DNA of 52,533 nucleotides from Pseudanabaena cinerea FACHB-1277 (lineage in GTDB: Bacteria; Cyanobacteriota; Cyanobacteriia; Pseudanabaenales; Pseudanabaenaceae): positions 1 to 52,533 of the forward strand of contig NZ_JACJPY010000025.1 in NCBI RefSeq assembly GCF_014696345.1, written 5' to 3'. Of the stretch, positions 2,157-42,606 are shown piece by piece (position 1 is the stretch's first letter; the number at the start of each line of letters is the position of its first letter). The notes beneath the pieces were generated by a model. That model worked only from the letters and a program-made list of their open reading frames with translations. It ran no database searches and had not been told where the DNA came from. The position numbers and the translations under genes are program-made.

Positions 2157-2214
2157 TTGAAAATGCTTAACTAATCTCTGATCTTGTAGAAATAAGCTTT
2201 TATCTTATTAAATT

Positions 2215-2829: not shown

Positions 2830-2862
2830 ATATCTAGTTAAATTAATTAGGAGAACCACAAA

Positions 2863-3723
2863 ATGTTTGATGTATTTAAAAATCGCTTAGAAATCACTGG
2901 CACTCTCACCACAATTACCGCCTTACGCATCAGTGCAGGGCGATCAACTGAGCCAATTGGCACAGATTTACCAGTGATCAAAGATGCTTTTGGTCGACCT
3001 TTGATTCCAGGATCAAGTTTTAAAGGGGCATTGCGATCGCGCCTTGAGAGTTTCTTGCGTGGTGTGCTAGGCGATGATCGCAAGTTAGTTGCCAATCCTG
3101 CGATCGAAGAAGAATGGTCAATCAAGAAAGATGAAATTAAAAAGTTTAAACAAGACTACGCGGATGATCAAGAACTCACTAGAGTGATTTTAGAACATAC
3201 CGATCTACCTTCCCACCTTTTCGGCTCACCTTGGCTTGCCAGTAAATTTCAAGTGCGCGACCTAACAGTTTTGCCTGATACTTGGTTTGGACAGTACCAA
3301 GAACGTGATGGCGTAGCCATTGACCGCGATACAGAGACAGCCGCCGATGGTAAACTCTATGACTTTCAAGTTGTGCCTGCGGGAACTCCCTTTGAATTTA
3401 AAGCAGTAATTGAGAATGCCGAACAATGGGAATTAGGTTTACTGATGATTGGCTTGCATCAGTTTGAGACAGAACAAATTCCCCTTGGAGGTGGGCGATC
3501 GCGTGGTTTAGGCGTTGTGCGCTTAGATATCAATCAATTGCGCTGGTTTGATGTCGAAGATAATCCTCATCGCTTGATTGATTACCTCAAAAAACTCGTA
3601 GATGGAGACAGCACAGCCTATGTCAATGGTGAAAACCTGAAACCTCATTGGACAGCAGCTTTGATTGCACATTTGAGAGGCAAAGTAAGCGATCGCCCTC
3701 TAGCTTCCACATCAACAAATTAA
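2863..3723 (+). CDS. csm3: Csm3-like RAMP protein (Csx7/SSO1426-type backbone subunit)
   Basis: 286 aa RAMP (Cas7-group) protein. The N-terminus reads TEPIGTDLPVIKD followed by IPGSSFKGALRSR, the classic Csm3 layout: Asp35 is in the position of the catalytic Asp that cuts target RNA, and the GSSxKG loop is at about 50-55. The C-terminal glycine-rich loop LGGGRSRGLG is near 207-216. By family knowledge it polymerises along the crRNA and cleaves bound target RNA at 6-nt intervals. A strong Shine-Dalgarno AGGAG lies about 9 bases before the ATG. It is flanked by the two nuclease-like paralogues. Confidence 0.85.
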   Translation: MFDVFKNRLEITGTLTTITALRISAGRSTEPIGTDLPVIKDAFGRPLIPGSSFKGALRSRLESFLRGVLGDDRKLVANPAIEEEWSIKKDEIKKFKQDYADDQELTRVILEHTDLPSHLFGSPWLASKFQVRDLTVLPDTWFGQYQERDGVAIDRDTETAADGKLYDFQVVPAGTPFEFKAVIENAEQWELGLLMIGLHQFETEQIPLGGGRSRGLGVVRLDINQLRWFDVEDNPHRLIDYLKKLVDGDSTAYVNGENLKPHWTAALIAHLRGKVSDRPLASTSTN

Positions 3724-3733
3724 TGAGGTAACT

Positions 3734-4363
3734 ATGTCTTTCAGTAATTTCAAAAGTCTCGGATCAACAGTCAAGGAACTACAAGTTACTTACAAAGAAG
3801 CGCATTTCTTAGCAAACGCATCATTCCCAGTATCAAATTATTTTCGGCAAGACTTAGAATTTGTGATGCGCGAAGGTGTGGTCAATAATTCCGAATTTGC
3901 TATCTGCGAAAATATGATTTATCCCATTCTCAAAGAAATTTGGAAATTCTATAGCGATAAATTCACCCTCTGGAGTCACCAGTTATTGACCTGTGATGAC
4001 AACCTCACGGGCTTTCCTGAGTACATTCTGGCAAGGCGATCGCCCTTTGGCAAAATCGTATTCGACAAACCCTATTTACTTTTAGTGGAGGCAAAACAGG
4101 ACAACTTTGATTGGGGTTGGGGGCAGTGTCTCGCGGAGATGATTGCTGCTAATCGGTTACATGGATCGGCAGCGATCGCCATTTTCGGCATTGTCTCCAA
4201 TGGTGTGACTTGGGAATTTGGCAAACTAGAGGGGGCTTGCTTTACCCACAACCCAGAACCAATCAGCATCTTTGATCTAGAAAAACTATTTGGTGCTGTC
4301 AACTATATCTTTCAGCAATGCGAGATGCAATTGACAACCTATTTAGACAGAGCCGCCGCCTAA
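3734..4363 (+). CDS. Putative PD-(D/E)XK-like protein, paralogue B
   Basis: 209 aa, a diverged paralogue of the product of 2215-2829. Matching blocks are LTGFPEYIL, LLVEAKQDN, GWGQCLAEMIAAN and FGIVSNGVTWEFGKL. The E-A-K strand is kept, but the upstream Asp of paralogue A aligns with Glu (PEY). This copy may therefore use Glu, have altered metal binding, or be inactive. The gene starts 10 bases after the Csm3-like stop and ends 39 bases before the next RAMP gene. Its position inside the effector operon suggests a role with the type III complex, but none is established by sequence. Confidence 0.68.
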   Translation: MSFSNFKSLGSTVKELQVTYKEAHFLANASFPVSNYFRQDLEFVMREGVVNNSEFAICENMIYPILKEIWKFYSDKFTLWSHQLLTCDDNLTGFPEYILARRSPFGKIVFDKPYLLLVEAKQDNFDWGWGQCLAEMIAANRLHGSAAIAIFGIVSNGVTWEFGKLEGACFTHNPEPISIFDLEKLFGAVNYIFQQCEMQLTTYLDRAAA

Positions 4364-4402
4364 ATTTATCCTAAATTTATATATTAAGGAACTTAATCAA
4401 TC

Positions 4403-5359
4403 ATGCACAAACGACTAGTCAATCACTGCACCATCAATCTAAGCCTAATTCCTGATGGACCAATTTTGATTAAATCAGGCAAAGAAGGAGCCGATCCAAC
4501 TAAGCCAGATATGGAATTTGTTGAAACTTATCACGGCGGTAGTAAAACTATTTATTTACCAGGCAGTAGCCTCAAGGGTGCGATTCGCGCCCATGCAGAA
4601 AGAATTGTGAGGACAGTGGGCAGCGATCGCCCGCCTTCTAATCCATCGCAACTATGGGCAAATGACCCTTTAAACGATAAGTATGATTATCTAAAAAATA
4701 AATCTTCTACGGATATTTACAAACTTTCATCCTTTACCGATCGCCTATTTGGTAACACATCCCTAGCCAGTCGCTTACGAATCGAAGATGCTTATCCCGA
4801 TCCAGCCAAGCCTGTAAAAACTGAAGAACGCAATGGTGTTGCTATTGATCGTGTATTTGGCTCAGTTGCCGTGGGACCTTTTAACTATCAAGTCTGCACC
4901 GCAGGCGAATTTCAAACTAAGATTCATCTCAAGAATTTTAGCCTTGCTCAACTGGGTTTAATCGGTCTAGTTTTACGCGATCTCAATGATGGCTGGTTTG
5001 GTATTGGTTTTGCCAAATCTCGCGGGTTGGGAACAGTCAAGGTCAAGCTAAATGAGGCTGTGGTGCAGTATCCTAGCTGTGAGCTTAGGGATGGAAAAAT
5101 TTATTCCTTTGGACAACAAGCTGAACTTGGATCGCCTGATATTCTATTAGGTGCAGGCGAATTTTTAGAGGCTGATAATCCCTATGGTTTTACAAAGCCT
5201 GATCATCAAACAACGCGGATCACCGCAATACCGATGAACTTAGGCTTTGGTGTGCAGATGGTATGGCAAGGTGATGATGAAACGGGTGTTCCCAATTTAT
5301 TTCAATGTGCTGTGCGATCGTGGAGTGAAGTGCTAAAGGTAGGGAGGACAGCCGCATGA
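4403..5359 (+). CDS. RAMP protein, Csm3/Csx7 (SSO1426)-like
   Basis: 318 aa RAMP protein. The N-terminal block has GPILIKSGKEGADP, then PDMEFVET with candidate catalytic Asp36, then LPGSSLKGAIRAHAERI at about 52-68, which is typical of the SSO1426-type group. A central RLFGNTSLASRL segment and ERNGVAIDR match the first RAMP (ERDGVAIDR) closely, so the two are related. The glycine-rich loop FAKSRGLGTV is near 207-216. It probably forms part of the Cas7 backbone of the type III complex. Its TGA stop overlaps the next ATG (ATGA at 5356-5359), implying translational coupling to the Csx19-like gene. Confidence 0.83.
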   Translation: MHKRLVNHCTINLSLIPDGPILIKSGKEGADPTKPDMEFVETYHGGSKTIYLPGSSLKGAIRAHAERIVRTVGSDRPPSNPSQLWANDPLNDKYDYLKNKSSTDIYKLSSFTDRLFGNTSLASRLRIEDAYPDPAKPVKTEERNGVAIDRVFGSVAVGPFNYQVCTAGEFQTKIHLKNFSLAQLGLIGLVLRDLNDGWFGIGFAKSRGLGTVKVKLNEAVVQYPSCELRDGKIYSFGQQAELGSPDILLGAGEFLEADNPYGFTKPDHQTTRITAIPMNLGFGVQMVWQGDDETGVPNLFQCAVRSWSEVLKVGRTAA

Positions 5360-5835
5360 CTTTAGCTAAATCATTTGTTAAAAAGGCATTTGTGGGAACT
5401 AGAGAAAATCTTTCTGAATCTGAACTCAATCATCTTCTGCAACAATATCAAGGTAATCACAGCTATTATTTTTTGCGTTGGGCAGATAGGGTTAGTGGAG
5501 TGATTGAAAATTTGCCTGATTCACTGAGTCCTGAAGGTCAGATGTTTAATGCCGATCTAGAAATTAGGTGGAAGCGAAAGGGCGACAAGTATAATGTGCT
5601 GCTCTTGAGTGAATATGACAATGATTATCCAGAGTTTAATGGCTTTGATCGCTTTCCTCAAACATGGCAAGCCGAAACCCGTAATGCCAAATTCTATACT
5701 GCAACTGAAACTCGATTTCCTAAGGAATTTATTTATCCCGAAAAGCTAAACTTCGGTCAGCGCTATTTCAAAGACCAAGATACAGGTATCGTTCATTTTG
5801 TTGCTCTTACTATCTTAGATCCAAAGGAGGCTTAA
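5356..5835 (+). CDS. csx19: Csx19-like protein (TIGR03984-type)
   Basis: 159 aa. Size and layout fit Csx19: a short N-terminal part with YYFLRWADRVSG, then EGQMFNADLEIRWKRKG and YNVLLLSEYD, then ATETRFPKEF and a closing strand RYFKDQDTGIVHFVAL. Csx19 is characteristic of type III-D loci and its function is unknown. The start codon overlaps the stop of the preceding RAMP gene and the stop is 3 bases before the next ATG, so it sits within a tightly coupled translational unit. The name rests on remembered family features and context and should be verified by profile search. Confidence 0.6.
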   Translation: MTLAKSFVKKAFVGTRENLSESELNHLLQQYQGNHSYYFLRWADRVSGVIENLPDSLSPEGQMFNADLEIRWKRKGDKYNVLLLSEYDNDYPEFNGFDRFPQTWQAETRNAKFYTATETRFPKEFIYPEKLNFGQRYFKDQDTGIVHFVALTILDPKEA

Positions 5836-5838
5836 CCC

Positions 5839-6876
5839 ATGACTTACAAACCACCCGCAAGACCAACTCCTAACCATAGTAATAACAATGATGATGCTGC
5901 ACCAAAGCCCTATGCAATGGTCACTTTTCCGACAACGCCGCCGCCTAAAGCCAGACCTGCGGGACATCACAAATATTTAGACAAACACATTCACGGCACA
6001 TTATTCCTCACGCTCAACGTGCAGACTCCTCTCCATGTCTCAACAGGTGTAGTGGCACTAGGTGCAGATGTTAATGCGCGTGTACCTCTAATCAAAACGA
6101 TGACTGTTGATACTAACAAAAAGTTGGTGATTCAAGGCAGTTCGCTCAAAGGCTGCATTAGAGCCGTTTATGAAGCAATTACAAATAGTACTTTAGCTGT
6201 CAATTCACGCTCTGCGGACAAAGTGCCAAGAGAAAGACAACCCTGTCGTAACAAAGAAGAGCTATGTCCAGCTAGTCAAGTTTTCGGTGCTTTAGATTGG
6301 CAAGGATTGATCGAGTTTAGTGATGCTCGATGCACTAATAACAATCCTAGTACGGGGTTTATGCCTTCTCTCTATTCACCGCGCCCTGCCCGTAGAGACT
6401 ATTACAATCCTAGAGGTATGGCAAAGGGACGTAAGTTTTATTACAACTTTGCCAAATCTATTGACAAAGGACAAAATCAAGGAATCCCTGTCCAACAAGC
6501 ATCTAAGGACTTTACCTTTATAACAGAGATTCATTTTAAAAATCTCAAGCCTGAACAGTTGGGAGTGCTGTTAATCATTTTGGGACAAGATCCAAACTAT
6601 CCGATCGCTCTGAAAATCGGTGGCGGTAAGCCCATCGGCATGGGAACGATGACGGTCACGGTTGATAAGATTGAACAGTCTAGTAATTTGCGCGATCGCT
6701 ATTCCAGTTATGAAGCCACTGAGTCCGATCAACTTACTGGTACTAAGCTGCAAGAATTTATGCAAAAACAAATTAACATTGCCCAATCTAGCCTCATTCA
6801 AAAAGAACAACTAACCCAACTAGCGGCAATTCTTGCCTATCCATCCACCAAACAACCACCATCGGGAATGTACTAA
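5839..6876 (+). CDS. RAMP protein with CPASQ-type insertion, third RAMP of the operon
   Basis: 345 aa. After a Pro-rich N-terminus of about 50 residues, the RAMP core begins at LFLTLNVQTPLHVSTG and continues to IQGSSLKGCIRAVYEA. A central CPASQVFGALDWQGLIEFSDA segment resembles the Cys-containing insertion of type III RAMPs, and the glycine-rich loop IGGGKPIGMG is near 256-265. The position corresponding to the catalytic Asp of the two Csm3-like neighbours reads NARVPLIK with no obvious Asp, so it may be a structural or terminal subunit. A very strong AAAGGAGG precedes the ATG. TAATG joins its stop to the next gene. Confidence 0.82.
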   Translation: MTYKPPARPTPNHSNNNDDAAPKPYAMVTFPTTPPPKARPAGHHKYLDKHIHGTLFLTLNVQTPLHVSTGVVALGADVNARVPLIKTMTVDTNKKLVIQGSSLKGCIRAVYEAITNSTLAVNSRSADKVPRERQPCRNKEELCPASQVFGALDWQGLIEFSDARCTNNNPSTGFMPSLYSPRPARRDYYNPRGMAKGRKFYYNFAKSIDKGQNQGIPVQQASKDFTFITEIHFKNLKPEQLGVLLIILGQDPNYPIALKIGGGKPIGMGTMTVTVDKIEQSSNLRDRYSSYEATESDQLTGTKLQEFMQKQINIAQSSLIQKEQLTQLAAILAYPSTKQPPSGMY

Positions 6877-7514
6877 TGAACGATACTCTCACCGAATCTC
6901 AATGGCAATCTGCCCATAAAATTGCGATCGAGCTGATCAAAAGCGAAACCGATCCCAATGAAGTTAGTAAGGCTAATTCATACTTGCGATCAATGAGCGA
7001 TCGCCCTGATGCTATTTCTAGATTTTTTAAGTACATCAGCACTCTAGTTAGCAGTGGCAATCAAATCGGACATAGCAAAAAGACTGTCGAATATTATCGC
7101 AATATTGCTGCTGCCTATAAGGAATACCTCAGCGATCAAGACAATCCTCAAGTGATGTTGCAGATTTTAGGTTGGACTTCGCGGCTGATGCGCTATTACA
7201 AAACCGCACCGATCGCCGAACGAGATGCCAAGTTGCAAGAAAAAGCGGCGATCGCTGACAATCAAGCTCAACGCCTAGCAGAAATTAAGGCATCAGTAAA
7301 ATCTCAAGTCTTTGAATTGGGGAAAATCGTTGATGCAAAGGTTGTCAACAAAACTAGTGGCAATAAAGTTACCTATGAGATAGTGGGTACAAGCATCAGG
7401 AACACTATCAAAGAGCCAAAAATGTTTGACAAATTAGAGATTGATCAAATTGTCAAAGTTCAAATTAATGAGATTGATGATGGCATTCCCAAAAAGTTTA
7501 AGCGCGTGGATTAG
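6876..7514 (+). CDS. Possible Cas11/Csm2-type small subunit fused to an OB-like tail
   Basis: 212 aa. Residues 1-135 look almost wholly helical, with segments such as SRFFKYISTLVSSG, SKKTVEYYRNIAAAYKEYL and VMLQILGWTSRLMRYYK, as expected of type III small subunits (Csm2/Cmr5/Cas11). Residues 135-165 are a charged, Gln/Lys-rich helix. The last 65 residues are beta-rich, with FELGKIVDAKVVNKTSG and IDQIVKVQINEI, suggesting an S1/OB-like nucleic-acid-binding domain. Start and stop overlap the upstream RAMP gene (TAATG). I do not recognise a named family; the small-subunit call comes from helical content and operon position. Confidence 0.5.
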   Translation: MNDTLTESQWQSAHKIAIELIKSETDPNEVSKANSYLRSMSDRPDAISRFFKYISTLVSSGNQIGHSKKTVEYYRNIAAAYKEYLSDQDNPQVMLQILGWTSRLMRYYKTAPIAERDAKLQEKAAIADNQAQRLAEIKASVKSQVFELGKIVDAKVVNKTSGNKVTYEIVGTSIRNTIKEPKMFDKLEIDQIVKVQINEIDDGIPKKFKRVD

Positions 7515-7692
7515 GTTTAGAAAGTTCGCGAGTGGCGATCGCCTTAAAAACATTCCTGAACAAGAACAATGGCTTTGGGACAACCCTCAAACACTTGCTT
7601 CATTAGAAAGAGGACTTGAGCAAGCGGCATCTGGTGAAACCTATGATCTAGGCTCGTTTAGTCAATACGTTAACTTAGAAATTGAGGATTAG
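7515..7692 (+). pseudogene. Remnant of a small antitoxin-like gene
   Basis: The frame encodes NIPEQEQWLWDNPQTLAS, LERGLEQAASGE and a closing SFSQYVNLEIED. This resembles the C-terminal half of small cyanobacterial antitoxin-like proteins of type II toxin-antitoxin pairs. No ATG or GTG lies in frame; the only upstream start is TTG at 7441, inside the preceding gene. The N-terminal part seems lost, and no toxin gene follows, since the Csm6-like gene starts 4 bases after the stop. Most likely this is a decayed fragment, although read-through coupling from the upstream gene cannot be excluded. Confidence 0.45.
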
Positions 7693-7696
7693 AAAT

Positions 7697-9013
7697 ATGC
7701 CGAAAATTTTATTTATCACAGTTGGTGGATCGCATCAGCCGATCGCTACTTCTATCAAAAGCCAAAAGCCCGATCGCGTAGTCTTTATCTGCTCCGATGG
7801 TGCGAGGGGCAGCAAATCCCAGGTGATTGGTGATGGTAAGCCCTGCGAAGTTAGGAAGGGAACCGAGGTAATTGAATCTTTGCCAAATATTCCCACACAG
7901 TTAGAGCTAGGCGATCGCTTTGATGCTGAAAGAGATTTGGTACTGATTCAGGAGCCAGATAATCTGTCGGAATGCTATGACAAAATCAATCAAAAGATCC
8001 GTGAAATTAAGCAGGAAAGTCCCAGCGCGGAGATCGTAGCGGACTATACAGGTGGCACAAAAACGATGTCTGTGGCTCTAGCAACCGCATCGCTGGACAA
8101 CGAGATTTTGCTATTCATTACCACTAATACCACGCGGCAAAACTTGATCAAGGTGGAGTCGGGAGAGCGATCGCGTAAGGCGACAACAACAGGATTGCTG
8201 GTAACGCGCACTGTGGAAAAGGCTTTGCCTGTATACTTACAGAATTATAATTACACGGCAGCGATCGCGGATTTACAAAATCTGATCCAAAGCACAGAGC
8301 TAAGTGCTGCACAAACGCGGCAGATTGATGAACTGCTCGATCAATGTGAGGGGTTTGATGCATGGGATCGCTTTGATCATCGGGTGGCTTTGTCGCGCTT
8401 GCAGCCCTATATGAAACAGGCAAATATTCAGCCCTATGGACTGTTTCTCAAAAAGGCGATCGCTAGTCGAGGGTTATTAGACACGAAATTTGATACCAGT
8501 AACGGGATGATGGGTCATGGCTATGAAGTGGTGGAAGACTTGCTGCTGAATGCTGATCGCCGTGCTAGTCAAAGGCGATATGATGACGCAGTGGGGCGAC
8601 TCTATCGGGCGATCGAGTTATTGGAGCAGGTGCGCCTGTTTAAGCAATATGGCATTTTGACGGGCGATGTGGATGTGGCGAAGTTGCCTGAAAGTTTGCA
8701 GCCCGAATATGAAGCAAGAAAGGCTAGTCATGGCAAGAAGAAAGTCCAAATTGCCCTATTTCAGAGCTATGATTTGCTGTCTAAGTTTGATAACGATCCC
8801 CTTGGACAGTTGTTCTTGAAGTACAAGGATCGTATTTTTAATTCCTTGGAAATTCGCAATAATTCACTATTTGCCCATGGATTTCAACCAATTAGCGAAA
8901 GTGATTATCGGCATGTTAATCAGGTGATTGGAGAGTTTATTCGTGAAGGAATTGCGGCGGTGATTCCCGCTAAATTGAAGTCAGGAGCAAGGCAGTTTCC
9001 GCAGGTTTTATAA
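7697..9013 (+). CDS. Csm6-like CARF-HEPN protein (TIGR02710-like)
   Basis: 438 aa from the ATG at 7697; a TTG five codons earlier is a weaker alternative. The N-terminus KILFITVGGSHQPI is the first strand and nucleotide loop of a CARF domain, and DYTGGTKTMSVAL near residue 115 is the second ligand-binding loop typical of Csm6/TIGR02710 proteins. The helical C-terminal half contains RNNSLFAHGF near residue 385, an R-x6-H HEPN ribonuclease motif. By family knowledge it is a cyclic-oligoadenylate-activated RNase that would cause collateral RNA degradation. It is the last gene of the effector run and is followed by a hairpin with a T-rich tail. Confidence 0.87.
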   Translation: MPKILFITVGGSHQPIATSIKSQKPDRVVFICSDGARGSKSQVIGDGKPCEVRKGTEVIESLPNIPTQLELGDRFDAERDLVLIQEPDNLSECYDKINQKIREIKQESPSAEIVADYTGGTKTMSVALATASLDNEILLFITTNTTRQNLIKVESGERSRKATTTGLLVTRTVEKALPVYLQNYNYTAAIADLQNLIQSTELSAAQTRQIDELLDQCEGFDAWDRFDHRVALSRLQPYMKQANIQPYGLFLKKAIASRGLLDTKFDTSNGMMGHGYEVVEDLLLNADRRASQRRYDDAVGRLYRAIELLEQVRLFKQYGILTGDVDVAKLPESLQPEYEARKASHGKKKVQIALFQSYDLLSKFDNDPLGQLFLKYKDRIFNSLEIRNNSLFAHGFQPISESDYRHVNQVIGEFIREGIAAVIPAKLKSGARQFPQVL

Positions 9014-9959: not shown

Positions 9960-10970
9960 ATGACGGCAATTTATTTGACTGAGGCGGGAACGGTGGTGAA
10001 TTTTAAAAATGAATCACTAGTGATTAGTCGAAGGGGCGATCGCCAGTCTTTTCGATTGGCGGAGATCTCTTTGCTGGTGGTGCATACGGGTGTGCAGCTA
10101 ACCAGTGTGGTGATGGCGGAGTTGATGGATCGCGGCATTGAGACGATTTTTTTGCGGCAGGATGGACAGTTTCGCGGCAGGTTGCAGGGCAGTTTTCAGA
10201 CTAATCCTGCGCTGCGGTTGGCGCAATATCAAGCTGTAAATTCTACTTTCGGTACGGTGATCGCCCAAAGGTTAATTGAGGGCAAGATTCGCAATCAAAG
10301 GGCAATTTTGCAAAGGCGCAATCGGGCGACTAAGGGAGCGATCGCGGAGATGTCGGAGGCGATCGATTTGCTGTCGACCTATATTTTGCAGGTGCGTAAT
10401 CATGATGTGCCTTTTAGTCGCGATAGTTTGATGGGATTAGAGGGCATCTGTGCGCGGTATTACTATCAGGCTTTGCGCCATTATTTCCCCTCTGAATGGC
10501 AGTTTCAGGGGCGCAATCGTCAGCCACCGCTCGATCCGATTAATGCGTTGTTGAGTTGGGGTTATGGGGTCTTATTGGCAAGGATTTTTGCGGCGGCGGT
10601 TTTGGCGGGGCTAGATCCCTATTTGGGATTCTTTCATGTGACGCAGCCCTATCGCCCAAATCTGGCTTTGGATTTGATGGAGGAGTTTCGCCCTGTGGTG
10701 GTGGATGCGGCGGTGATTGCCATTGTTCAGTCAAGTTTGTTAACTCCTGAAGATTTTGAGCCTTCGCCCGATGGTGCTGGTATTTGGTTGGGGGCGATCG
10801 CCAAAAAACTTTTCCTTGCCCAGCTTGAACGTCAGTTTAATAGTTCTCTGCTCTATCCGCCCCAAAATCGCAAGTTGCGCCTTAGCCAAATTCTGTTGGA
10901 ACAGGCGCGATCGCTGGGACGTTGTTTGCTGGAGCGATCGCTGGATTATCAGCCCTATGTCATTAAATAG
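9960..10970 (+). CDS. cas1: Cas1 integrase
   Basis: 336 aa, a standard Cas1. Beta-rich N-terminal domain: AIYLTEAGTVVNFKNE, then LLVVHTGVQLTS and LMDRGIETIFL. The helical catalytic domain carries LMGLEG with the first metal-binding Glu (near 160), GFFHVTQPYRPNLALDL with the His (near 225), and MEEFRP with the second acidic residue (near 240). With Cas2 it integrates new spacers at the leader end of the array beginning at 11565. The ATG overlaps the stop of a 43-codon open stretch (ATGA at 9960-9963). The stop codon lies inside the hairpin separating it from cas2. Confidence 0.96.
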   Translation: MTAIYLTEAGTVVNFKNESLVISRRGDRQSFRLAEISLLVVHTGVQLTSVVMAELMDRGIETIFLRQDGQFRGRLQGSFQTNPALRLAQYQAVNSTFGTVIAQRLIEGKIRNQRAILQRRNRATKGAIAEMSEAIDLLSTYILQVRNHDVPFSRDSLMGLEGICARYYYQALRHYFPSEWQFQGRNRQPPLDPINALLSWGYGVLLARIFAAAVLAGLDPYLGFFHVTQPYRPNLALDLMEEFRPVVVDAAVIAIVQSSLLTPEDFEPSPDGAGIWLGAIAKKLFLAQLERQFNSSLLYPPQNRKLRLSQILLEQARSLGRCLLERSLDYQPYVIK

Positions 10971-10999
10971 AGAGAGTGGCGCATTGCGCCACTCTCTCT
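10969..10999 (+). other. Perfect 15-bp hairpin between cas1 and cas2
   Basis: AGAGAGAGTGGCGCA (10969 onward) is followed after one T by its exact reverse complement, ending at 10999. With realistic loop opening this leaves about a 13-bp GC-containing stem. It overlaps the last bases of cas1 and lies 11 bases before the cas2 ATG. The following bases TTCTCAATTT are only weakly T-rich, so an attenuator or mRNA-stability element is as likely as a terminator. Confidence 0.6.
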
Positions 11000-11010
11000 G
11001 TTCTCAATTT

Positions 11011-11301
11011 ATGGATCAAAATATGCTGTGGTTGGTTTGTTATGATGTGACGGACGATCGCCGCCGCCTAAAGTTGGCGAAGCGGCTGGAGCAGCGTTGT
11101 CAGAGGGTGCAGCGATCGGTTTTTGAGTGTCCTTTGAGTGAGGCGGTGTTGGATAAAAATTTACAAAAGTATTGGTTGCCTTTGTTGAAGCTGGATGAGG
11201 ATAATTTGCGGGTCTATCCTTTAGATGAAACGGCGAAGCGGCGATCGCGGGTGTTTGGTGGTGCGCGTCCCTATGAGCCGCCTGATTTTGTGATTTTATG
11301 A
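11011..11301 (+). CDS. cas2: Cas2
   Basis: 96 aa, the usual Cas2 length. It begins MDQNMLWLVCYDVTDDRRR, the characteristic first ferredoxin-like strand with the conserved Asp of Cas2, followed by LAKRLEQRCQRVQRSVFEC. It closes with a strand containing DNLRVYPLD. Cas2 dimerises and bridges two Cas1 dimers in spacer integration. The ATG at 11011 is chosen because the protein then starts directly at the conserved strand; the fifth codon is also ATG. It follows cas1 by 40 bases containing a hairpin and precedes the leader. Confidence 0.95.
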   Translation: MDQNMLWLVCYDVTDDRRRLKLAKRLEQRCQRVQRSVFECPLSEAVLDKNLQKYWLPLLKLDEDNLRVYPLDETAKRRSRVFGGARPYEPPDFVIL

Positions 11302-11564
11302 GTTTTAAGTTATGTAAAGTTGGTGTGCTTTTTGTCGCGGGTTGCTATGGTTAGTTTTTTGGTGTTTTCTGGTGTTTGTGGGATGTTTGGGCTGGTTTTT
11401 GGGTTGACTTGTTGGTGATTTTGAGTTATTTTGTGAATATTGCAGTTTTAAAAGCCTTTTTTAGTTTTTTCCTGTTTTTCTGGTTCGTTTGTAAACGATT
11501 GTTAAGCGGGCTGCATTTTACGAACCTTGAAAACCACATAGTGTATATGTTTCTGAGTGGCAGT
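11302..11564 (+). promoter_or_regulatory. CRISPR leader with candidate promoter
   Basis: 263 bases between cas2 and the first repeat, with no credible gene. The plus strand is strikingly rich in T and G and poor in C over 11302-11480. A candidate sigma70-type promoter is TTGACT at 11404-11409 and TATTTT at 11427-11432 with a 17-base spacer, placing transcription toward the array about 125 bases before the first repeat. The leader-proximal segment ACGAACCTTGAAAACC (about 11520-11535) looks like the conserved block seen upstream of cyanobacterial arrays; that comparison is from memory. Confidence 0.7.
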
Positions 11565-14500
11565 ATTAGCCACAACCTTTACCCCGCAAGGGGACGGAAA
11601 CCCAACAATAGAACCTATAGGCAATCCTTTAGATTCAGGATTAGCCACAACCTTTACCCCGCAAGGGGACGGAAACAGCAATACGGTTATTGCCAACCAA
11701 TTCAAAAGGTATTTGAGTATTAGCCACAACCTTTACCCCGCAAGGGGACGGAAACTTAGTAACACCTCCAACTTATATTGAAGAGTTTAAATCATTATTA
11801 GCCACAACCTTTACCCCGCAAGGGGACGGAAACTTTAGCAGTTGAAGATGCTAAAACAGAAAAAGAGCCTAGCATTAGCCACAACCTTTACCCCGCAAGG
11901 GGACGGAAACAATCATAGTTGTTGTCTTTATAACTATTATATATACTCTAATTAGCCACAACCTTTACCCCGCAAGGGGACGGAAACCAGAAGAAGAAGA
12001 GTAATAAGCCATTGCCATTTCAGGATTAGCCACAACCTTTACCCCGCAAGGGGACGGAAACCCTTCTATACCAACCAGGAGCGGAGGTAATCCTGGAAAA
12101 TTAGCCACAACCTTTACCCCGCAAGGGGACGGAAACGATGACTTAAGTTCCTTAACCATCCGACAGCTCAAGATTAGCCACAACCTTTACCCCGCAAGGG
12201 GACGGAAACGATAATAATTTCTCGTTCAGTCATTGCAGTATCCTAAATTAGCCACAACCTTTACCCCGCAAGGGGACGGAAACTTGAGACTAGCTTTGAA
12301 CTGAATAGCAGTCTCTTTGTCTAATTAGCCACAACCTTTACCCCGCAAGGGGACGGAAACTGACTACACAGGAATCTATGAGGAAAGCAGTTTATAGTAT
12401 TAGCCACAACCTTTACCCCGCAAGGGGACGGAAACTGAGGGTGGATACCCGTGCTGTGCTAACATCTCAGAATTAGCCACAACCTTTACCCCGCAAGGGG
12501 ACGGAAACCAGAAAGTTATGTTATCGTAAGCATAGATAGCATCGCTATTAGCCACAACCTTTACCCCGCAAGGGGACGGAAACTCATTTTAGTCAGTACA
12601 AAGTTAATTCCGTTTCATTTGAGGATTAGCCACAACCTTTACCCCGCAAGGGGACGGAAACTCATGGGTACAGAACAATCTAAAGGCTGTAGCAGTATTA
12701 GCCACAACCTTTACCCCGCAAGGGGACGGAAACTTAGGAATCCAAGTAAGGACGGTGTTCCTATCACCGTCAAATTAGCCACAACCTTTACCCCGCAAGG
12801 GGACGGAAACGTTCGCTAGTCCCTTCAATTTGGTTAAGAGTTTTATCTAATTAGCCACAACCTTTACCCCGCAAGGGGACGGAAACGAGGCTTCGCAACC
12901 TCGAGGACTCCCTTGCTCATTATTAGCCACAACCTTTACCCCGCAAGGGGACGGAAACAGTGCTTGGTTTAGTCTCATCTAACATTGATTATGTTGCTAA
13001 ATTAGCCACAACCTTTACCCCGCAAGGGGACGGAAACTCATATCACAAATTATGCTTACCACTATAGTTTTCACATTAGCCACAACCTTTACCCCGCAAG
13101 GGGACGGAAACGTCAATCAATTGGGCCTCAATTTGATCATAGGATTCCTATTAGCCACAACCTTTACCCCGCAAGGGGACGGAAACTAAGTCTATCTGCC
13201 TCATTTTTAATCTGTTCAGGAGTCATTAGCCACAACCTTTACCCCGCAAGGGGACGGAAACATCTCATGAGCGCCATCTAAGTCAATATATGGAATGATT
13301 AGCCACAACCTTTACCCCGCAAGGGGACGGAAACTATTTATACCAATCAGGGAATCTAGTAGTCCCTGTTCTCTATTAGCCACAACCTTTACCCCGCAAG
13401 GGGACGGAAACACCGTACATCTGCGCTTAAAGCCCTTATGGCTTACGGGTATTAGCCACAACCTTTACCCCGCAAGGGGACGGAAACCAACATTGATGCA
13501 GAGGTCTTAGCCCCACTGGTTGCTTGATTAGCCACAACCTTTACCCCGCAAGGGGACGGAAACGCGGTAAGTTATCAGAGTCTCCTGTAGCTTCTAGGTA
13601 TTCTATTAGCCACAACCTTTACCCCGCAAGGGGACGGAAACCTGCTAGAGAGGATGACTATGGCTTACTATTGCACACGATTAGCCACAACCTTTACCCC
13701 GCAAGGGGACGGAAACCAACACACTAAGAACCTTAGAGGAGATGGTAGCTAGACTTATTAGCCACAACCTTTACCCCGCAAGGGGACGGAAACCATGTCA
13801 TCATGAATTAAGAGAAATCCATCTTGATATGCAACAGATTAGCCACAACCTTTACCCCGCAAGGGGACGGAAACTACTTTACAGGGCCAAATGTATATAA
13901 TACTTATAGGTATTAGCCACAACCTTTACCCCGCAAGGGGACGGAAACAGCAGCAGAGGATCAGTTGTTAGAAGATTCAGGTCTTGCTGATTAGCCACAA
14001 CCTTTACCCCGCAAGGGGACGGAAACGAGCTATTACTAATACTCTAATCCTATGTATCGCTTCTCATTAGCCACAACCTTTACCCCGCAAGGGGACGGAA
14101 ACGCATCTTCCCATGTGGAGATAGTTTCATACACAGGATTAGCCACAACCTTTACCCCGCAAGGGGACGGAAACAAAAACTTTTTCACACATAGGGTAGG
14201 GGGGCCTATGCACATTAGCCACAACCTTTACCCCGCAAGGGGACGGAAACCAGGAGCTAAAACAAATGGAACGGTATATTCTTTCAAATTAGCCACAACC
14301 TTTACCCCGCAAGGGGACGGAAACAAGGGAGGTCACTACTCCTGTAGCTAAATAATGAAAGGATTAGCCACAACCTTTACCCCGCAAGGGGACGGAAACA
14401 TGCCTTTACATGTTGAGTGGCATCATGCACCACTCTATTAGCCACAACCTTTACCCCGCAAGGGGACGGAAACTGCAAGAGTTGGCTAAAAAGGCTGCAA

Positions 14501-17500
14501 TGATCAATAATTAGCCACAACCTTTACCCCGCAAGGGGACGGAAACCAGGAAACATCTCCAAAGTGCGTTTCTGTTCATGGAAGAATTAGCCACAACCTT
14601 TACCCCGCAAGGGGACGGAAACCAGACTGCATCGTTGTGTACGATGGATTTTGATGGCGACCATTAGCCACAACCTTTACCCCGCAAGGGGACGGAAACG
14701 CATTAATAAAAACCTCCTCTTCCTCATCTACAAAATCAATTAGCCACAACCTTTACCCCGCAAGGGGACGGAAACCCTGATGTCGCTTGAAGTAACGAGT
14801 AATGGACACCATCATTAGCCACAACCTTTACCCCGCAAGGGGACGGAAACACTGTATACCCATTGATGGTTACTTCTTGGCCATACTTAGAAGAATTAGC
14901 CACAACCTTTACCCCGCAAGGGGACGGAAACTGTTTATGCAGTACTCCTAATAAAAAGGGCCAAATTATTAGCCACAACCTTTACCCCGCAAGGGGACGG
15001 AAACATAAGTTTGATTTTAAAGGTGTATTAATACAAAAGCATTAGCCACAACCTTTACCCCGCAAGGGGACGGAAACAGGACTAGCAATTGTTATAAAAG
15101 GCAATGTATACATAAATTAGCCACAACCTTTACCCCGCAAGGGGACGGAAACACTTAAGTTGTTTAAGAGCATCTATTAAAGCATACTTTCATTAGCCAC
15201 AACCTTTACCCCGCAAGGGGACGGAAACTACCTGTAATAGTATGAGTATGAGTTGCACTACCACCATTAGCCACAACCTTTACCCCGCAAGGGGACGGAA
15301 ACAATGATAAAACTATATATTTGTTAGTCAATAAAGTTATTAGCCACAACCTTTACCCCGCAAGGGGACGGAAACTTCTTGTGTTATCAGGCAATTCAAT
15401 AGCAATTGAACCATATTAGCCACAACCTTTACCCCGCAAGGGGACGGAAACAAAGCCTAGGCAAGTAAGGACTCACCTAGGCTAAGAGCTATTAGCCACA
15501 ACCTTTACCCCGCAAGGGGACGGAAACTGCCATTGTCCATGCTTCCAAAACAACTTAGGAGAATATTAGCCACAACCTTTACCCCGCAAGGGGACGGAAA
15601 CCTCCACTTAGGAAGATAGTTACATAGGTTTTGCCCTTAGAAATTAGCCACAACCTTTACCCCGCAAGGGGACGGAAACAGTTTGTTAATGAGAAATTCC
15701 AGCGTACAATGGAAGATTAGCCACAACCTTTACCCCGCAAGGGGACGGAAACTTAGCTCCACTAGTTGCTTGAAGTAACGAGTAATGGAATTAGCCACAA
15801 CCTTTACCCCGCAAGGGGACGGAAACATACCCCATTTGAAGCTGCTCGTAACTCTTGCTAGGGTGATTAGCCACAACCTTTACCCCGCAAGGGGACGGAA
15901 ACATATACATATTTATAAACTTAGGGAGCCTCTTAACTAATATTAGCCACAACCTTTACCCCGCAAGGGGACGGAAACTAGGTCAAGATGGATTAATGTT
16001 CTCTTCTTGGTTTAACAGCATTAGCCACAACCTTTACCCCGCAAGGGGACGGAAACATAGGCTTCAACATCAGCCCATGAGATAGGACCCCAAATTAGCC
16101 ACAACCTTTACCCCGCAAGGGGACGGAAACCAACAGATATATTGCGTGTGGGTTCCTTGCCTAAAGGCATTAGCCACAACCTTTACCCCGCAAGGGGACG
16201 GAAACACCATCACGCTGAGAGTGGAGTTGTTGAAGGATGTTGTATTAGCCACAACCTTTACCCCGCAAGGGGACGGAAACGGTATTGTATCTGTTGTACA
16301 GCATAATGGATATGTGAATTAGCCACAACCTTTACCCCGCAAGGGGACGGAAACCCTAAACCGAAAGAGGACATCCATCACTACAGGGATGGTCATTAGC
16401 CACAACCTTTACCCCGCAAGGGGACGGAAACCTAATACATCAATTGTTAAGCCTTTCTCTTTCTCAAGCCAAACAAGATTAGCCACAACCTTTACCCCGC
16501 AAGGGGACGGAAACAGTTGATTCTCTGTTAGAGGGCTGGTTAACATTGTAGATAATTAGCCACAACCTTTACCCCGCAAGGGGACGGAAACTTTACAAGT
16601 GGCTTTTCTTAACCACTTGACTTCCTTTATTAGCCACAACCTTTACCCCGCAAGGGGACGGAAACGATACTGTCATTGTCTTTTACCTGGCCTTGTAAAG
16701 ATGTTTATTAGCCACAACCTTTACCCCGCAAGGGGACGGAAACCTGAACAATTTAACATTGAATGGTCTTCTAAGTATGGATTAGCCACAACCTTTACCC
16801 CGCAAGGGGACGGAAACTGAAGATTATTCATATGAGGATAGTGATGATGATTATTACTATTAGCCACAACCTTTACCCCGCAAGGGGACGGAAACCCTTG
16901 AGGTCAGCGCTAACTGACTTGAAGAACACGCGCATTAGCCACAACCTTTACCCCGCAAGGGGACGGAAACCCAACTCAGCCTTGCCAGACTCGCCTTCCT
17001 TCCTAAGATTAGCCACAACCTTTACCCCGCAAGGGGACGGAAACTGGACTGGTAATAGTTTAAGTCAAGCTATTCAAACTATTAGCCACAACCTTTACCC
17101 CGCAAGGGGACGGAAACTAAATAAAAGGGTCTTAATTGACCCCTTTATTTATTAGAGAATTAGCCACAACCTTTACCCCGCAAGGGGACGGAAACTAACT
17201 ATTCCTACATTACTACTAATGAAGAGTTACAAGAGATTAGCCACAACCTTTACCCCGCAAGGGGACGGAAACACTTGTAACCTTTGATGTTGGTGTTACG
17301 GGTATTCACTTATTAGCCACAACCTTTACCCCGCAAGGGGACGGAAACCAGGTTTGGGGTATTAGAATGTCTTTAGGATCTTACAAATTAGCCACAACCT
17401 TTACCCCGCAAGGGGACGGAAACCAAATTACTCCTAATTGGTATCCACCTTCTGAACCTAAAAATTAGCCACAACCTTTACCCCGCAAGGGGACGGAAAC

Positions 17501-20500
17501 GATACAAACTCATTTATATAGTCCTGTATTAATATTATTAGCCACAACCTTTACCCCGCAAGGGGACGGAAACATTAGTTATTGTTAAATAATATATGGG
17601 TTTATTACTATATTAGCCACAACCTTTACCCCGCAAGGGGACGGAAACTTGGGAAGGAGTTCGAGTCTCCTGTTTGCTATTTTTAATTAGCCACAACCTT
17701 TACCCCGCAAGGGGACGGAAACCAAAACAATGTTAGACATTGCTAAGAACTGTAATTGTATTAGCCACAACCTTTACCCCGCAAGGGGACGGAAACTCCT
17801 GATTGGTCAGAAGATCATGAGGATTATTGGCAATTAGCCACAACCTTTACCCCGCAAGGGGACGGAAACTTATAGACATACTTAATAACCAAATAACTAA
17901 ATAAATTAGCCACAACCTTTACCCCGCAAGGGGACGGAAACAATAAGCCCCTTTTATTTATGTCTTAATAGTATATAAAATTAGCCACAACCTTTACCCC
18001 GCAAGGGGACGGAAACCCAATAGTGTTAGACACAACAGCAGCAGAGTTTAGTTATTAGCCACAACCTTTACCCCGCAAGGGGACGGAAACAAGGCTAAGG
18101 CTGATGCTGAAGTGTTTGTAGTTGAAAGCAATTAGCCACAACCTTTACCCCGCAAGGGGACGGAAACATAACTATAGAGTAACAATGTTGTTACTTGATG
18201 TTACATTATTAGCCACAACCTTTACCCCGCAAGGGGACGGAAACAAGGTATTACCCTGCTCCTAAATAAAAGGGCTAAGTTAATAATTAGCCACAACCTT
18301 TACCCCGCAAGGGGACGGAAACTACTTGGAAAACAATAGATAATGTAGTTGGTAATAATGTATTAGCCACAACCTTTACCCCGCAAGGGGACGGAAACCG
18401 AATTGTAGAAACCAACCAAGGTTTTTGGCACTTTGATATTAGCCACAACCTTTACCCCGCAAGGGGACGGAAACCTACAGCACCTGGTAGATCAATTGGT
18501 AGCTACTCAGAAGATTAGCCACAACCTTTACCCCGCAAGGGGACGGAAACTTCATGTTACCTATAAGACTAACAACAAGACCTGCAATTAGCCACAACCT
18601 TTACCCCGCAAGGGGACGGAAACTATAATTAAAGCAGCAATTGATTGGATGATTGAGGACAAAGATTAGCCACAACCTTTACCCCGCAAGGGGACGGAAA
18701 CTAATAGAATTACTATTTAAGGCGCTCCCTAAATTTAATTAGCCACAACCTTTACCCCGCAAGGGGACGGAAACAGTATTGGTCATAAGCTGAATAGCTG
18801 CTGGTGCAGAATTAGCCACAACCTTTACCCCGCAAGGGGACGGAAACTACAACAGTAGAAGTATGTATAAAAACATCACCATTATTAGCCACAACCTTTA
18901 CCCCGCAAGGGGACGGAAACGAAGGTTGACATGGATGATGTCAAGGCAGCTTTGGATGAAATTAGCCACAACCTTTACCCCGCAAGGGGACGGAAACCTA
19001 AATCATTAAATTCTTTTGAAAAACCATTAGTAGGATGATTAACTACATTAGCCACAACCTTTACCCCGCAAGGGGACGGAAACCAGGACTAATTACATTC
19101 CACATAACAATCTCCAAATAATTAGCCACAACCTTTACCCCGCAAGGGGACGGAAACTCTCCTCGGACTGTGATCAGTTAGTAGTATATTGTCTCATTAG
19201 CCACAACCTTTACCCCGCAAGGGGACGGAAACACTACTAGGGAGTTTACTGTATTGGCCCATTTCATATTAGCCACAACCTTTACCCCGCAAGGGGACGG
19301 AAACTTTCTTGAACCTTTTCAAGTTCAAGCTGTTCTGCTGCTAGAGATTAGCCACAACCTTTACCCCGCAAGGGGACGGAAACTGTATTAGGTAAGTCAA
19401 CGCCCCAAGACTTAGCAACTTGTATTAGCCACAACCTTTACCCCGCAAGGGGACGGAAACTTACCAGCAAAGAACTTTAATAAATACTTGTCACCAGTAT
19501 TAGCCACAACCTTTACCCCGCAAGGGGACGGAAACTATATTGAGGTTGTTGTGATTGTGTATTAGTATTGTTATTAGCCACAACCTTTACCCCGCAAGGG
19601 GACGGAAACGATATACTTAGTTATAAGTATAAGAGGTGATAACATTTATATTAGCCACAACCTTTACCCCGCAAGGGGACGGAAACTCACCAACTATAAT
19701 ATTACTACTACTAGACATCCTACCTGATTAGCCACAACCTTTACCCCGCAAGGGGACGGAAACCGGCGAACTCAGTGGCGAACGCGGTGAGGGTGTTAAT
19801 CATTAGCCACAACCTTTACCCCGCAAGGGGACGGAAACTCCAGCTATGGAATGGTGGTGCTTCACCACTTTGATTCCAATAATGATTAGCCACAACCTTT
19901 ACCCCGCAAGGGGACGGAAACAAGAAGAGCAGCAGGTGTTAGTGTAGACATGATTTTATTAGCCACAACCTTTACCCCGCAAGGGGACGGAAACCAAGAA
20001 GCTAAGGTTGCTGCTGTAAAAGCTGAGGCTGATGCTAATTAGCCACAACCTTTACCCCGCAAGGGGACGGAAACGAAGCAGCAGAATGGGCTGCTTTATA
20101 CTCCACACAATCTACATTAGCCACAACCTTTACCCCGCAAGGGGACGGAAACACTTACAAGCATTCAAACTGTAAGTAGTGAGGGGTAACTCCCAATTAG
20201 CCACAACCTTTACCCCGCAAGGGGACGGAAACGTCATGTAAGTTAGTATTATTATCTTTAACAACTCTAAGATTAGCCACAACCTTTACCCCGCAAGGGG
20301 ACGGAAACGTCAATAAGTTCAATGTAGTGTGTAATATGATCTCTGTTATTAGCCACAACCTTTACCCCGCAAGGGGACGGAAACGTAGTTACATCTTCTT
20401 GTATTATTGGAATCATATTATGTATTAGCCACAACCTTTACCCCGCAAGGGGACGGAAACTTGTTTGTGGTAGCTAAACCAACTAGCGTTAGCAAAAGAT

Positions 20501-22820
20501 TAGCCACAACCTTTACCCCGCAAGGGGACGGAAACGCAGTTGAAGAGATTGAATGTTGGCAGTTTATTGATGATATTAGCCACAACCTTTACCCCGCAAG
20601 GGGACGGAAACTCATCCATCCAATGTAGATTGAAGAAAAACTACTTATTAGCCACAACCTTTACCCCGCAAGGGGACGGAAACTCTTGTTGTAGCTCTAA
20701 TAACTTTAATACTTACTAAATTAGCCACAACCTTTACCCCGCAAGGGGACGGAAACCATGGAAGTATCTAGCTTCCACGCATCCTCTTTGCATTAGCCAC
20801 AACCTTTACCCCGCAAGGGGACGGAAACATGCATCAGAGTAGGCCTCCTGAATGATACCACAGTGAATTAGCCACAACCTTTACCCCGCAAGGGGACGGA
20901 AACGCATCAGACAATTTCTTGTCTTCAGCAGCTTTAGCATCATTAGCCACAACCTTTACCCCGCAAGGGGACGGAAACAGAATAGGCCCAATTAAATATT
21001 AATAGCTCTCTAGTAAATTAGCCACAACCTTTACCCCGCAAGGGGACGGAAACAGCTTGGCCCTTGGTGGTGGTAACAGTAGTAGTCATGATTAGCCACA
21101 ACCTTTACCCCGCAAGGGGACGGAAACACTAAGGCACAGGTAGTACAACTAGCTCTTACTAATATTAGCCACAACCTTTACCCCGCAAGGGGACGGAAAC
21201 CAGGTATTGCCAGATTCAGAGCCAATCACTCCTTTACCATTAGCCACAACCTTTACCCCGCAAGGGGACGGAAACAAATGTGCCACGTTGCCATCAATGG
21301 CAACGCACTGGATTAGCCACAACCTTTACCCCGCAAGGGGACGGAAACTGTTTAAGCGAGGCGCGGACAGCACGTAATAAAATACCTATTAGCCACAACC
21401 TTTACCCCGCAAGGGGACGGAAACACTGTTGATGAGCCTTTGTCAGCGCGTGAAACACAACATTAGCCACAACCTTTACCCCGCAAGGGGACGGAAACAG
21501 TTGACGTGTGATGTCATCAAGTCCAGAACCACACCAAAAATTAGCCACAACCTTTACCCCGCAAGGGGACGGAAACCACCTCACTGTCCCATCCATAACG
21601 GGTAGGTTCAGAGAGATTAGCCACAACCTTTACCCCGCAAGGGGACGGAAACCCAACCAATTTTGGGCTGTGGTCAAGCACAATAAACATGTATTAGCCA
21701 CAACCTTTACCCCGCAAGGGGACGGAAACAAAGCACCCCTGCACCCTGATAATCAGCGCCTAACGCAGCATTAGCCACAACCTTTACCCCGCAAGGGGAC
21801 GGAAACATCTAGATGCTTGCATCCATTCTTCTAGTTTTTCCCAAGATTAGCCACAACCTTTACCCCGCAAGGGGACGGAAACAGTATCACCCGCCCCGTT
21901 TGCGGATCGAACTCATTCTGATTAGCCACAACCTTTACCCCGCAAGGGGACGGAAACATTATTGGCGGCTGATTTTATTGCTAGTGGTTGGGTATTAGCC
22001 ACAACCTTTACCCCGCAAGGGGACGGAAACCTACTATAGGTAGTCTTGTTATGTACTGGGATGAGGTAATTAGCCACAACCTTTACCCCGCAAGGGGACG
22101 GAAACTGGACTTTGCAGCCACTTTCTGAAGAGGAGTTTCAATATTAGCCACAACCTTTACCCCGCAAGGGGACGGAAACATATTAGTTACAACTACAGTA
22201 GATGATCCTCTAGTACTAATTAGCCACAACCTTTACCCCGCAAGGGGACGGAAACGATTAGCAGCGATCGCCATCTTCTTAGCCCTTGGATATTAGCCAC
22301 AACCTTTACCCCGCAAGGGGACGGAAACGCATTGGTTTGGTGCAAGTCCTCACCAGCGCGAACTATTAGCCACAACCTTTACCCCGCAAGGGGACGGAAA
22401 CAAAAAGCACCTTGGGCTTTAAGTGTATATGTTGTTAAATTAGCCACAACCTTTACCCCGCAAGGGGACGGAAACCCCAACGCAAGTGGTAGAAGGTCAA
22501 TAATGTGGCTTTATTAGCCACAACCTTTACCCCGCAAGGGGACGGAAACCAAAAGACTTACTATTGTCCAGCCATTGTTGCCATTCTTGTTCATTAGCCA
22601 CAACCTTTACCCCGCAAGGGGACGGAAACTTGCAGCATCAAGTGTGTAGAACACATCTTCAAAATCTTGATTAGCCACAACCTTTACCCCGCAAGGGGAC
22701 GGAAACCTTAGGTAATAGCCAATGTAAAACATTGTGAACCCAATCATTAGCCACAACCTTTACCCCGCAAGGGGACGGAAACTCCTGTTGTGAGTAAAGC
22801 TTATGATGCGGTTTATGTTT

Positions 22821-23089
22821 ATTTGCCACAACCTTTACCCCGCAAGGGGACGGAAACACCGATACGGACGCTCAAAAAGCGCTTGCGAGTATTGTCATTT
22901 GCCACAACCTTTACCCCGCAAGGGGACGGAAACTGCCACTAATGGCATTGGGATGCAAGCGTACTCTGCAATTAGCCACAACCTTTACCCCGCAAGGGGA
23001 CGGAAACAAGTCAATCGCCATGAGCAAATCTTTGATATCTTCGATTTTGCGAATTAGCCACAACCTTTACCCCGCAAGGGGATGGAAAC
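22821..23089 (+). repeat. Variant repeats near the trailer end of the array
   Basis: Repeats at 22821-22857 and 22897-22933 read ATTTGCC in place of ATTAGCC (one A-to-T change at repeat position 4). The repeat at 23053-23089 reads GGGGATGGAAAC in place of GGGGACGGAAAC, a change inside the 8-base crRNA tag. The two copies with the same change are adjacent. Older, leader-distal repeats accumulating changes supports the assigned polarity. Confidence 0.95.
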
Positions 23090-23258
23090 ACAAAGCGAAA
23101 ATAATCAAGGTTTGCCCCTGGGCGGATTAGCCACAACCTTTACCCCGCAAGGGGACGGAAACTTGATGATCTCTGCGATGTCGTCAATCTCTGCGGCGAA
23201 TTAGCCACAACCTTTACCCCGCAAGGGGACGGAAACTAGCAGTTGAGCGCCCGCGAGG

Positions 23259-34807: not shown

Positions 34808-34809
34808 TT

Positions 34810-35139: not shown

Positions 35140-35155
35140 ATTGATTGATGGGAGA

Positions 35156-37839: not shown

Positions 37840-37841
37840 AA

Positions 37842-41324: not shown

Positions 41325-41363
41325 AGTATTTCCTTGTTTTTTACAGGGTTTTTAACAACTTGC

Positions 41364-42400: not shown

Positions 42401-42460
42401 TGGGCAACCTCAGATAGTTTTGTGTTTAGATTGCTTGATATTGTTTGAATTTTGCTCAAA

Positions 42461-42476: not shown

Positions 42477-42606
42477 GCAATAAACGAAATAGTGATTACT
42501 GCGTAAGGCGATCGCGGAGTCAACTTCTCAATAGATTGATCTCTTTGCATTACTCTGTTAAAAGTATATAGTCTATGATCAATTACCGAAATTCTACCAT
42601 TGCTGT

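Follow-up and report, generated by a model that had tools for sequence, protein, structure and literature searches.

Do the guides of this RNA-targeting CRISPR system pair with the messenger RNA of their target, or with its antisense? The locus lies in 52,533 nt of Pseudanabaena cinerea FACHB-1277 DNA (NCBI RefSeq assembly GCF_014696345.1, contig NZ_JACJPY010000025.1; hereafter, the window), where a CRISPR array of 154 spacers (11565..23236, + strand) with a 37-nt repeat (ATTAGCCACAACCTTTACCCCGCAAGGGGACGGAAAC) adjoins type III-D cas genes. A preliminary description of this DNA singled out three non-adjacent spacers that overlap in a chain. It read them on the spacer strand, as the end of one gene (..EVLAPLVA stop) and the start of the next (ATG GAC ACC ATC), so that the CRISPR RNAs (crRNAs) would match the coding strand and pair with antisense. 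We find that the reverse holds: the target gene runs on the opposite strand and, given left-to-right transcription of the array, the crRNAs of these spacers are by their sequence complementary to the target mRNA. This is ordinary for a type III system and no anomaly.

The three spacers are numbers 26 (13488..13526), 43 (14776..14813), and 56 (15753..15789) from the left (these and all other spacers are given on the + strand), and the chain that they form spans 63 nt. Spacers 43 and 56 have an identical 22-nt core, and their whole overlap agrees at 26 of 31 positions. Spacers 26 and 56 are identical at 18 of 20 positions and spacers 26 and 43 at 9 of 14. When all 154 spacers were compared with each other on both strands, the 43/56 pair scored 22, which is far above chance (the best score from ten simulated arrays was 14). 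The 26/56 pair scored 14, a level that was also reached by two unrelated pairs and by one of the ten simulated arrays, and so this overlap is at the edge of chance and unconvincing by itself. It is confirmed because every spacer separately encodes part of one 21-residue phage peptide, as described below. Thus, the chain and its single target region, as first noticed, are real.

The minus strand is open across all 63 nt (DGVHYSLLQATSGAKTSASML). Wherever the three spacers differ in a codon on this strand, the change is synonymous, including a serine encoded by AGT or TCA (2, 3, and 3 differences per spacer pair, at four codon positions). A degenerate DNA pattern for the peptide HYSLLQATSGA had two matches in 2.9 million viral contigs (IMG/VR). 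Both matching contigs, G038 and G040, encode the exact 21-aa peptide within an open reading frame (ORF) of 951 aa, and the two are identical over their overlap. Spacer 26 is antisense to codons 96-108 of this phage gene (36 of 39 nt match G040 and 35 of 39 match G038). Also antisense to the gene are spacer 56, which overlaps both others (31 of 37 nt in G038), and spacer 43 (DGVHYSLLQATS; 28 of 38 nt in G038). Because the minus strand is an exact part of the 951-aa phage ORF, the crRNAs should pair with the mRNA.

Could the target nevertheless be a junction on the spacer strand, where one gene ends and another begins, with crRNAs that equal the mRNA? One + frame does give EVLAPLVA and a stop, ATGGA is present in two of the three spacers, the TGA is kept in G040, and the ATG is kept in G038. 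However, this model demands a change from leucine to aspartate between spacers, its stop is TGG in G038, and G040 lacks its ATG. A search with a degenerate pattern of this + frame gave no match. As the opposite strand lies inside the 951-aa ORF with exact peptide identity, the phage homologs refute this model and we give it next to no credence.

A search of viral sequences with the joined 63 nt had been suggested as a check. When 50,697 phage records were searched by BLAST, neither the joined sequence nor the whole array had matches above the chance level; it was the peptide pattern from the minus strand that found the two contigs. In 38 genomes of the order, only the window itself matched the joined sequence above chance. 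One other viral contig (L009) contains an exact 20-nt core, TTGAAGTAACGAGTAATGGA, but its flanks do not fit and its agreement with spacer 56 (62%) is no better than with unrelated spacers, so we rejected it as a chance match.

The complementarity to mRNA depends on the direction in which the array is read. The anatomy of the locus points to transcription from left to right, as the preliminary description had supposed, because cas1 and cas2 (9960..11301, + strand) end immediately to the left of the array, the leader between cas2 and the first repeat (11302..11564, + strand) aligns with the leader of an array from the same genus (genome G013), variant repeats lie at the right (distal) end, and the repeat folds as CCCC-GCAA-GGGG followed by eight bases, ACGGAAAC. 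These eight bases have the customary position and length of a crRNA handle. A promoter scan of the leader gave a single promoter-like site (11404-11432), which is at the chance level, and the folding energy of the repeat hairpin was nothing unusual relative to shuffled sequences in either orientation. The exact repeat is absent from the named genomes that we searched. (The count of 154 spacers was obtained by splitting composite gaps and dropping pieces outside 26-59 nt; the final gap of 1,658 nt yielded no spacer.)

The three spacers are not alone: the 951-aa gene is a spacer hotspot of the array. We compared six-frame translations of all spacers to three homologs of the target protein, with a score of at least 36 as the threshold. 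(Among 770 reversed or shuffled spacers, one reached 36 and none scored higher.) Fifteen of the 154 spacers score at least 36 against the gene family (0.2 expected), and none score between 30 and 36. Besides spacers 26, 43, and 56, the spacers that are antisense to the same 951-aa gene are 10 (12284..12323), 16 (12734..12773, at DGDRN), 18 (12887..12921), 34 (14103..14137), 40 (14547..14585), and 57 (15827..15865, HPSKSYEQLQMGY). Spacer 133 (21577..21615, score 42) is antisense to the gene family by way of a homolog on contig C528 of a same-genus genome, as is spacer 53, more weakly (15528..15564, score 39). Spacers 72 (16971..17007, score 38) and 71 (16896..16933, score 37) are also antisense and weaker. 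Two spacers are sense: spacer 41 (14623..14662), which covers the DFDGD motif of the 951-aa protein and overlaps spacer 16 at the DFDGD codons from the opposite strand, and spacer 55 (15680..15715), a borderline match to the N-terminus whose score of 36 equals the null maximum. Having 13 of 15 spacers in the antisense orientation is unlikely under even odds (P = 0.007, or P = 0.02 with the overlapping three counted once).

The hotspot also accounts for the chain of overlaps. When we simulated 15 spacers over roughly 2.85 kb of gene, three of the starts fell within 25 nt in 9.6% of runs, so the overlap follows from the hotspot and gives no evidence of a special site. Because the three spacers carry three different haplotypes, the joined 63-nt sequence is a composite and not a single genome. 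Spacers 26, 43, and 56 are independent captures of different haplotypes, and as they lie 17 and 13 array positions apart, the gene was met at different times. So, the suggestion that related phages had been sampled on separate occasions was correct.

Matches to the rest of these phage contigs are few and avoid the virion genes. Spacer 11 (12361..12398) matches G040 at 34 of 38 nt, ends 72 nt upstream of the 951-aa gene, and is complementary to that gene's strand. Spacer 27 (13564..13604) is antisense to a 958-aa gene of G040 (13 of 13 residues), and spacer 33 (14027..14065) covers the start codon of that gene in the sense orientation. Spacer 12 (12436..12471) matches G038 DNA outside of the called genes (28 of 36 nt, score 25, null maximum 18). 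No spacer scores at least 36 against the virion-region proteins of G038 and G040 (7,253 aa, 0.6 expected), and for all other contig proteins (43,970 aa) there were 9 such spacers as compared to 8.0 expected. Yet, of all the bases conserved between G038 and G040, 62% lie on the virion side (right of 9.3 kb) and 24% in the target gene, and some virion genes are better conserved than the target gene but have no spacers above chance. The probability of zero virion matches in 15 would be 4 × 10−7 under even sampling and equal detectability, an assumption that fails if the true phages carry other virion genes. (We rejected spacer 115 as a match to the terminase. Its nucleotide score was 19, in the sense orientation, with a null maximum of 18, but its translation disagrees with the terminase.)

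This leads to one alternative explanation, that the one-gene focus is an artefact of the references: this gene might be all that the real phages have in common with the IMG/VR contigs, and spacers from their different virion genes would then go unnoticed. About 135 of the 154 spacers have no above-chance match, and a homolog with 46% identity lies on a contig from a genome of the same genus, both of which fit this idea. On the other hand, spacer 26 is about as near to G038 as to G040, and these two contigs have virion genes in common (their terminases are 96% identical), and spacers 11, 12, 27, and 33 match other non-virion DNA of these contigs. Also, the virion genes of six contigs were compared, versus three references for the target gene, and in the set of all other contig proteins the only spacer to reach 42 was spacer 27, whose match is not in a virion gene. 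We consider an artefact possible but doubtful.

What produced the hotspot? A parallel is the Thermus phage phiFa, for which type III spacers were acquired from both strands, and the guides of survivors were directed at transcripts from a narrow early region, which contains the gene of a phage RNA polymerase (gene 44); the authors put the bias down to selection (Artamonova et al., 2020, PMC7515739). The resemblance to our array lies in the concentration on one region, the transcript-complementary spacers, and the absence of a reverse transcriptase fused to Cas1. The differences are that phiFa was a laboratory infection, whereas a natural array reflects many encounters with diverged relatives, and that the phiFa region was early and included a polymerase gene, whereas the early timing of our target and its polymerase activity are hypothetical. 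By this analogy, selection rather than biased uptake probably made the hotspot.

Alternatively, the hotspot could arise from uptake, if Cas1-Cas2 samples one region (such as the end that is injected first) or if a reverse transcriptase makes spacers from RNA. A position bias at the acquisition stage is described for phage T5 with a type I-E system in the same source (PMC7515739), and the confidently matched spacers of our array are all outside the virion region. This seems unlikely because uptake of DNA should not place 13 of 15 spacers on one strand, and because Thermus uptake without selection drew on both strands (PMC7515739). Also, Cas1 models cover residues 4-326 of the 336-aa Cas1, which has no reverse-transcriptase fusion (a free-standing reverse transcriptase elsewhere in the genome was not sought).

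The genes to the left of the array are, by their protein families, type III-D, because they encode Csm3-like and Csx19 proteins, which agrees with the earlier view of an RNA-targeting system. The effector genes (2863..7514, + strand) encode three Csm3/Csx7-like RAMPs, Csx19, Csx21, and a PD-(D/E)xK protein, and a second PD-(D/E)xK gene is at 2215-2829. Model matches were strong for Csx19 (2 × 10−54) and the Csm3-like proteins (2 × 10−71, 9.4 × 10−58, and 7 × 10−44), and the cas_cyan_RAMP model also matched. The operon is flanked by two CARF-HEPN ancillary genes, one Csx1-like (897..2156, + strand) and one Csm6/Csx1-like (7682..9013, + strand). So, the window contains Csx19, several Csm3/Cas7-like subunits, its own cas1-cas2, and a Cas6 (26151..27308, + strand). 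Cas10 and Csx10 (Cas5_IIId) are encoded on another contig of the same genome, C170, which is probably the leftward continuation of the operon. The C170 Cas10 contains GGDD, and a search of it for an HD motif found none. Altogether the gene content is that of III-D systems with Csx10, Csx19, and Csm3-like subunits, except that the genes are divided between two contigs of the assembly. The window's Csm3-like ORFs are 286, 318, and 345 aa, versus 505 and 833 aa for those of the sister genome G013.

If the crRNAs instead served a DNA-targeting type I complex, then the strand would be irrelevant. Arrays can serve both type I and type III systems, according to Vink et al. (2021, PMC8482600), and three of the matched spacers are sense. 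However, there was no match to a type I effector among the 27 window proteins that were scanned with PADLOC (the remaining genome was not scanned), the array adjoins III-D genes and its own cas1-cas2, and the 15 flanking sequences listed show no shared motif, though these come from relatives of the true targets. We view a type I role as quite improbable.

We propose that three related phages, all members of one uncultured family, supplied the three spacers from the same gene motif, and that survivors kept mRNA-complementary guides as a hotspot; we hold this explanation with good confidence. In detail, the three captures would have been separate, at the conserved motif LLQATSGAKTSASML of a gene for a protein of about 950 aa with DFDGD. 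Each spacer would be stored so that its crRNA complements that gene's mRNA. The III-D complex (Cas10, Csx10, Csm3-like subunits, and Csx19), which presumably uses this array, would bind the transcript. The bound complex would then make cyclic oligoadenylate, given the GGDD of Cas10, and switch on the CARF-HEPN RNases. Survivors would retain antisense guides against the 951-aa gene, because protection needs a guide against a transcript that appears in time, which gives the hotspot of 15 of 154 spacers. The target transcript is thus expected to be early. The array in the window fits both the phiFa selection pattern and the type III strand average.

Several observations weigh against this explanation. 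First, the antisense bias is pronounced for the hot gene, but for the array in general it is modest or uncertain. Vink et al. (2021, PMC8482600) give an average of 65% of spacers that can pair with mRNA in type III arrays, and 13 of 15 for one gene is not clearly above this (one-sided P = 0.06). Gene spacers 41 and 55 and also spacer 33 are sense. Over the array as a whole, only 64% of coding spacers are antisense (bootstrap 95% confidence interval of 51-77%), as compared to the 65% average. (This was estimated with a codon model of phage genes, calibrated on held-out genes.) It is 56% (39-70%) for spacers 1-98 and 76% (59-91%) for spacers 99-154, and a plain count of open frames gives 12 versus 12, or no bias. 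Second, for another Thermus phage, phiKo, a strand bias was again seen, but with spacers spread more evenly and protective ones from genes of every temporal class (Artamonova et al., 2020, PMC7515739), so a focus on one region is no general rule. Third, the matches of spacers 26, 43, and 56 are imperfect (28-36 of 37-39 nt), and the collections searched do not contain the phages that the host encountered. Fourth, Cas10 and Csx10 lie on the separate contig C170, and there are two further Cas10-like genes, on contigs C112 and C104. Finally, nine sister arrays with 173 spacers, from eight genomes of the same genus and one of the same family, have no convincing match to the gene (best score 35; the 99% point of the control was 35 and its maximum was 47). 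The reading of these sister arrays is incomplete (57 spacers were read from 141 repeat matches in G013, and 44 from 96 in G012); it kept spacers of 25-59 nt, and repeat borders were poorly defined in G025 and G033. One of the 44 G012 spacers (G012:C27, L098) does match this phage family, being antisense to a 243-aa gene with agreement at 13 of 13 residues, so the family may reach more than one species of the genus.

A related question is what the 951-aa protein does. It carries DFDGD in both G038 and G040, and a third viral contig encodes a homolog with 77% identity; searching the viral contigs with a profile gave these three again. The homolog with 46% identity, at 1723-4401 of the 4.4-kb contig C528 of the same-genus genome G028 (L060), has a degenerate motif, SFDEG. 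(By eye, this gene adjoins two small genes that resemble a toxin-antitoxin pair.) A distant homolog on an Anabaena sp. WA102 plasmid (NZ_CP011457.1 71637-74291, L106; 24% identity, E = 8 × 10−4, hhalign probability of 62% over about 500 residues) has DTDGD and led to no known family. DFDGD is also carried by the two-barrel phage RNA polymerases P23-45 gp64 and gp96 (PMC10770324). The DxDxD metal motif is thus common to these enzymes, the target, and the plasmid homolog, whereas the C528 copy lost it and sequence similarity to the target is undetectable. We hypothesize from this motif that the protein could be a phage RNA polymerase. What counts against this is that the motif is the whole of the argument for it. 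The protein had no match by sequence in PHROGs, the 50,697 phage records, or PDB; in Pfam there was one hit below the cut-off and none over it; and hhalign against gp64 gave a probability of 0.3%, like the 0.2% of an unrelated control. The predicted structure (mean pLDDT of 29.7, from two sequences) was unusable. A scan of 84,980 named species, based on two short peptides, gave 590 candidate stretches, and no relative was among them. A bolder version of our proposal is that this lineage's type III immunity repeatedly converged on the transcript of an early phage gene that encodes a new RNA polymerase family, so that about one tenth of a 154-spacer array guards against a phage swarm whose gene varies silently at the most closely sampled sites; we offer this tentatively, as a conjecture that will perhaps not hold.

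That the contigs are phage is clear from ten proteins that were scanned, which included a terminase (phrog_38), a virion structural protein (phrog_20475), and a major head protein (phrog_1357); six of the ten had no match. We found no literature that names the gene or the phage family, though the family as such was not searched for. In G038, a stretch at about 5900-6750 (L023, G038:1-20000) that divides the unit of the target gene from the rightward genes contains repeated short segments. This is perhaps a replication or control region, and it is matched by spacer 12 and weakly by spacer 61.

In principle all of this is ordinary, and what stands out is the focus on one gene and an undescribed phage family. 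The apparent anomaly of guides that are unable to pair with mRNA becomes a clear example from nature of type III guides directed at mRNA. Also, the synonymous differences between overlapping spacers are enough to show which strand of an unknown target is coding and what protein it encodes. The data point to an uncultured, undescribed phage family, with which this cyanobacterium has probably had many encounters. If the focus on one gene holds, then the result from Thermus cultures, as to which phage transcripts merit guarding, becomes testable in the wild.

Other spacers and genes of the window gave minor observations. Spacers 74 (17118-17158), 85 (17942-17979, in the reversed orientation), and 89 (18245-18285) have TAAATAAAAGGG in common, and spacer 45 (14932-14967) has a stretch that resembles it (pair scores of 11-14, within the null). 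By its look, this is a terminator-like element that recurs in some phage. Spacers 58 (15903-15941) and 95 (18702-18737) are an antiparallel near-match (18 of 21, score within the null) and are possibly a second pair from homologous sites, on opposite strands. The HTH region at the C-terminus of Cas6 matches a PADLOC model of HTH domains that are often fused to Cas6, and Cas6 is a possible regulator of its own locus. To the right of the array is a DISARM-type cluster (33269-48473) with DrmC, DrmB, DrmA, and the DrmMI methyltransferase. The window contains 89 HIP1-type GCGATCGC octamers, versus 0.7 in shuffled sequences; HIP1 is a cyanobacterial marker. Finally, spacer 81 (17649-17685) contains GAGTTCGAGTCTCC, which we take to resemble a tRNA T-arm, perhaps from a phage tRNA.

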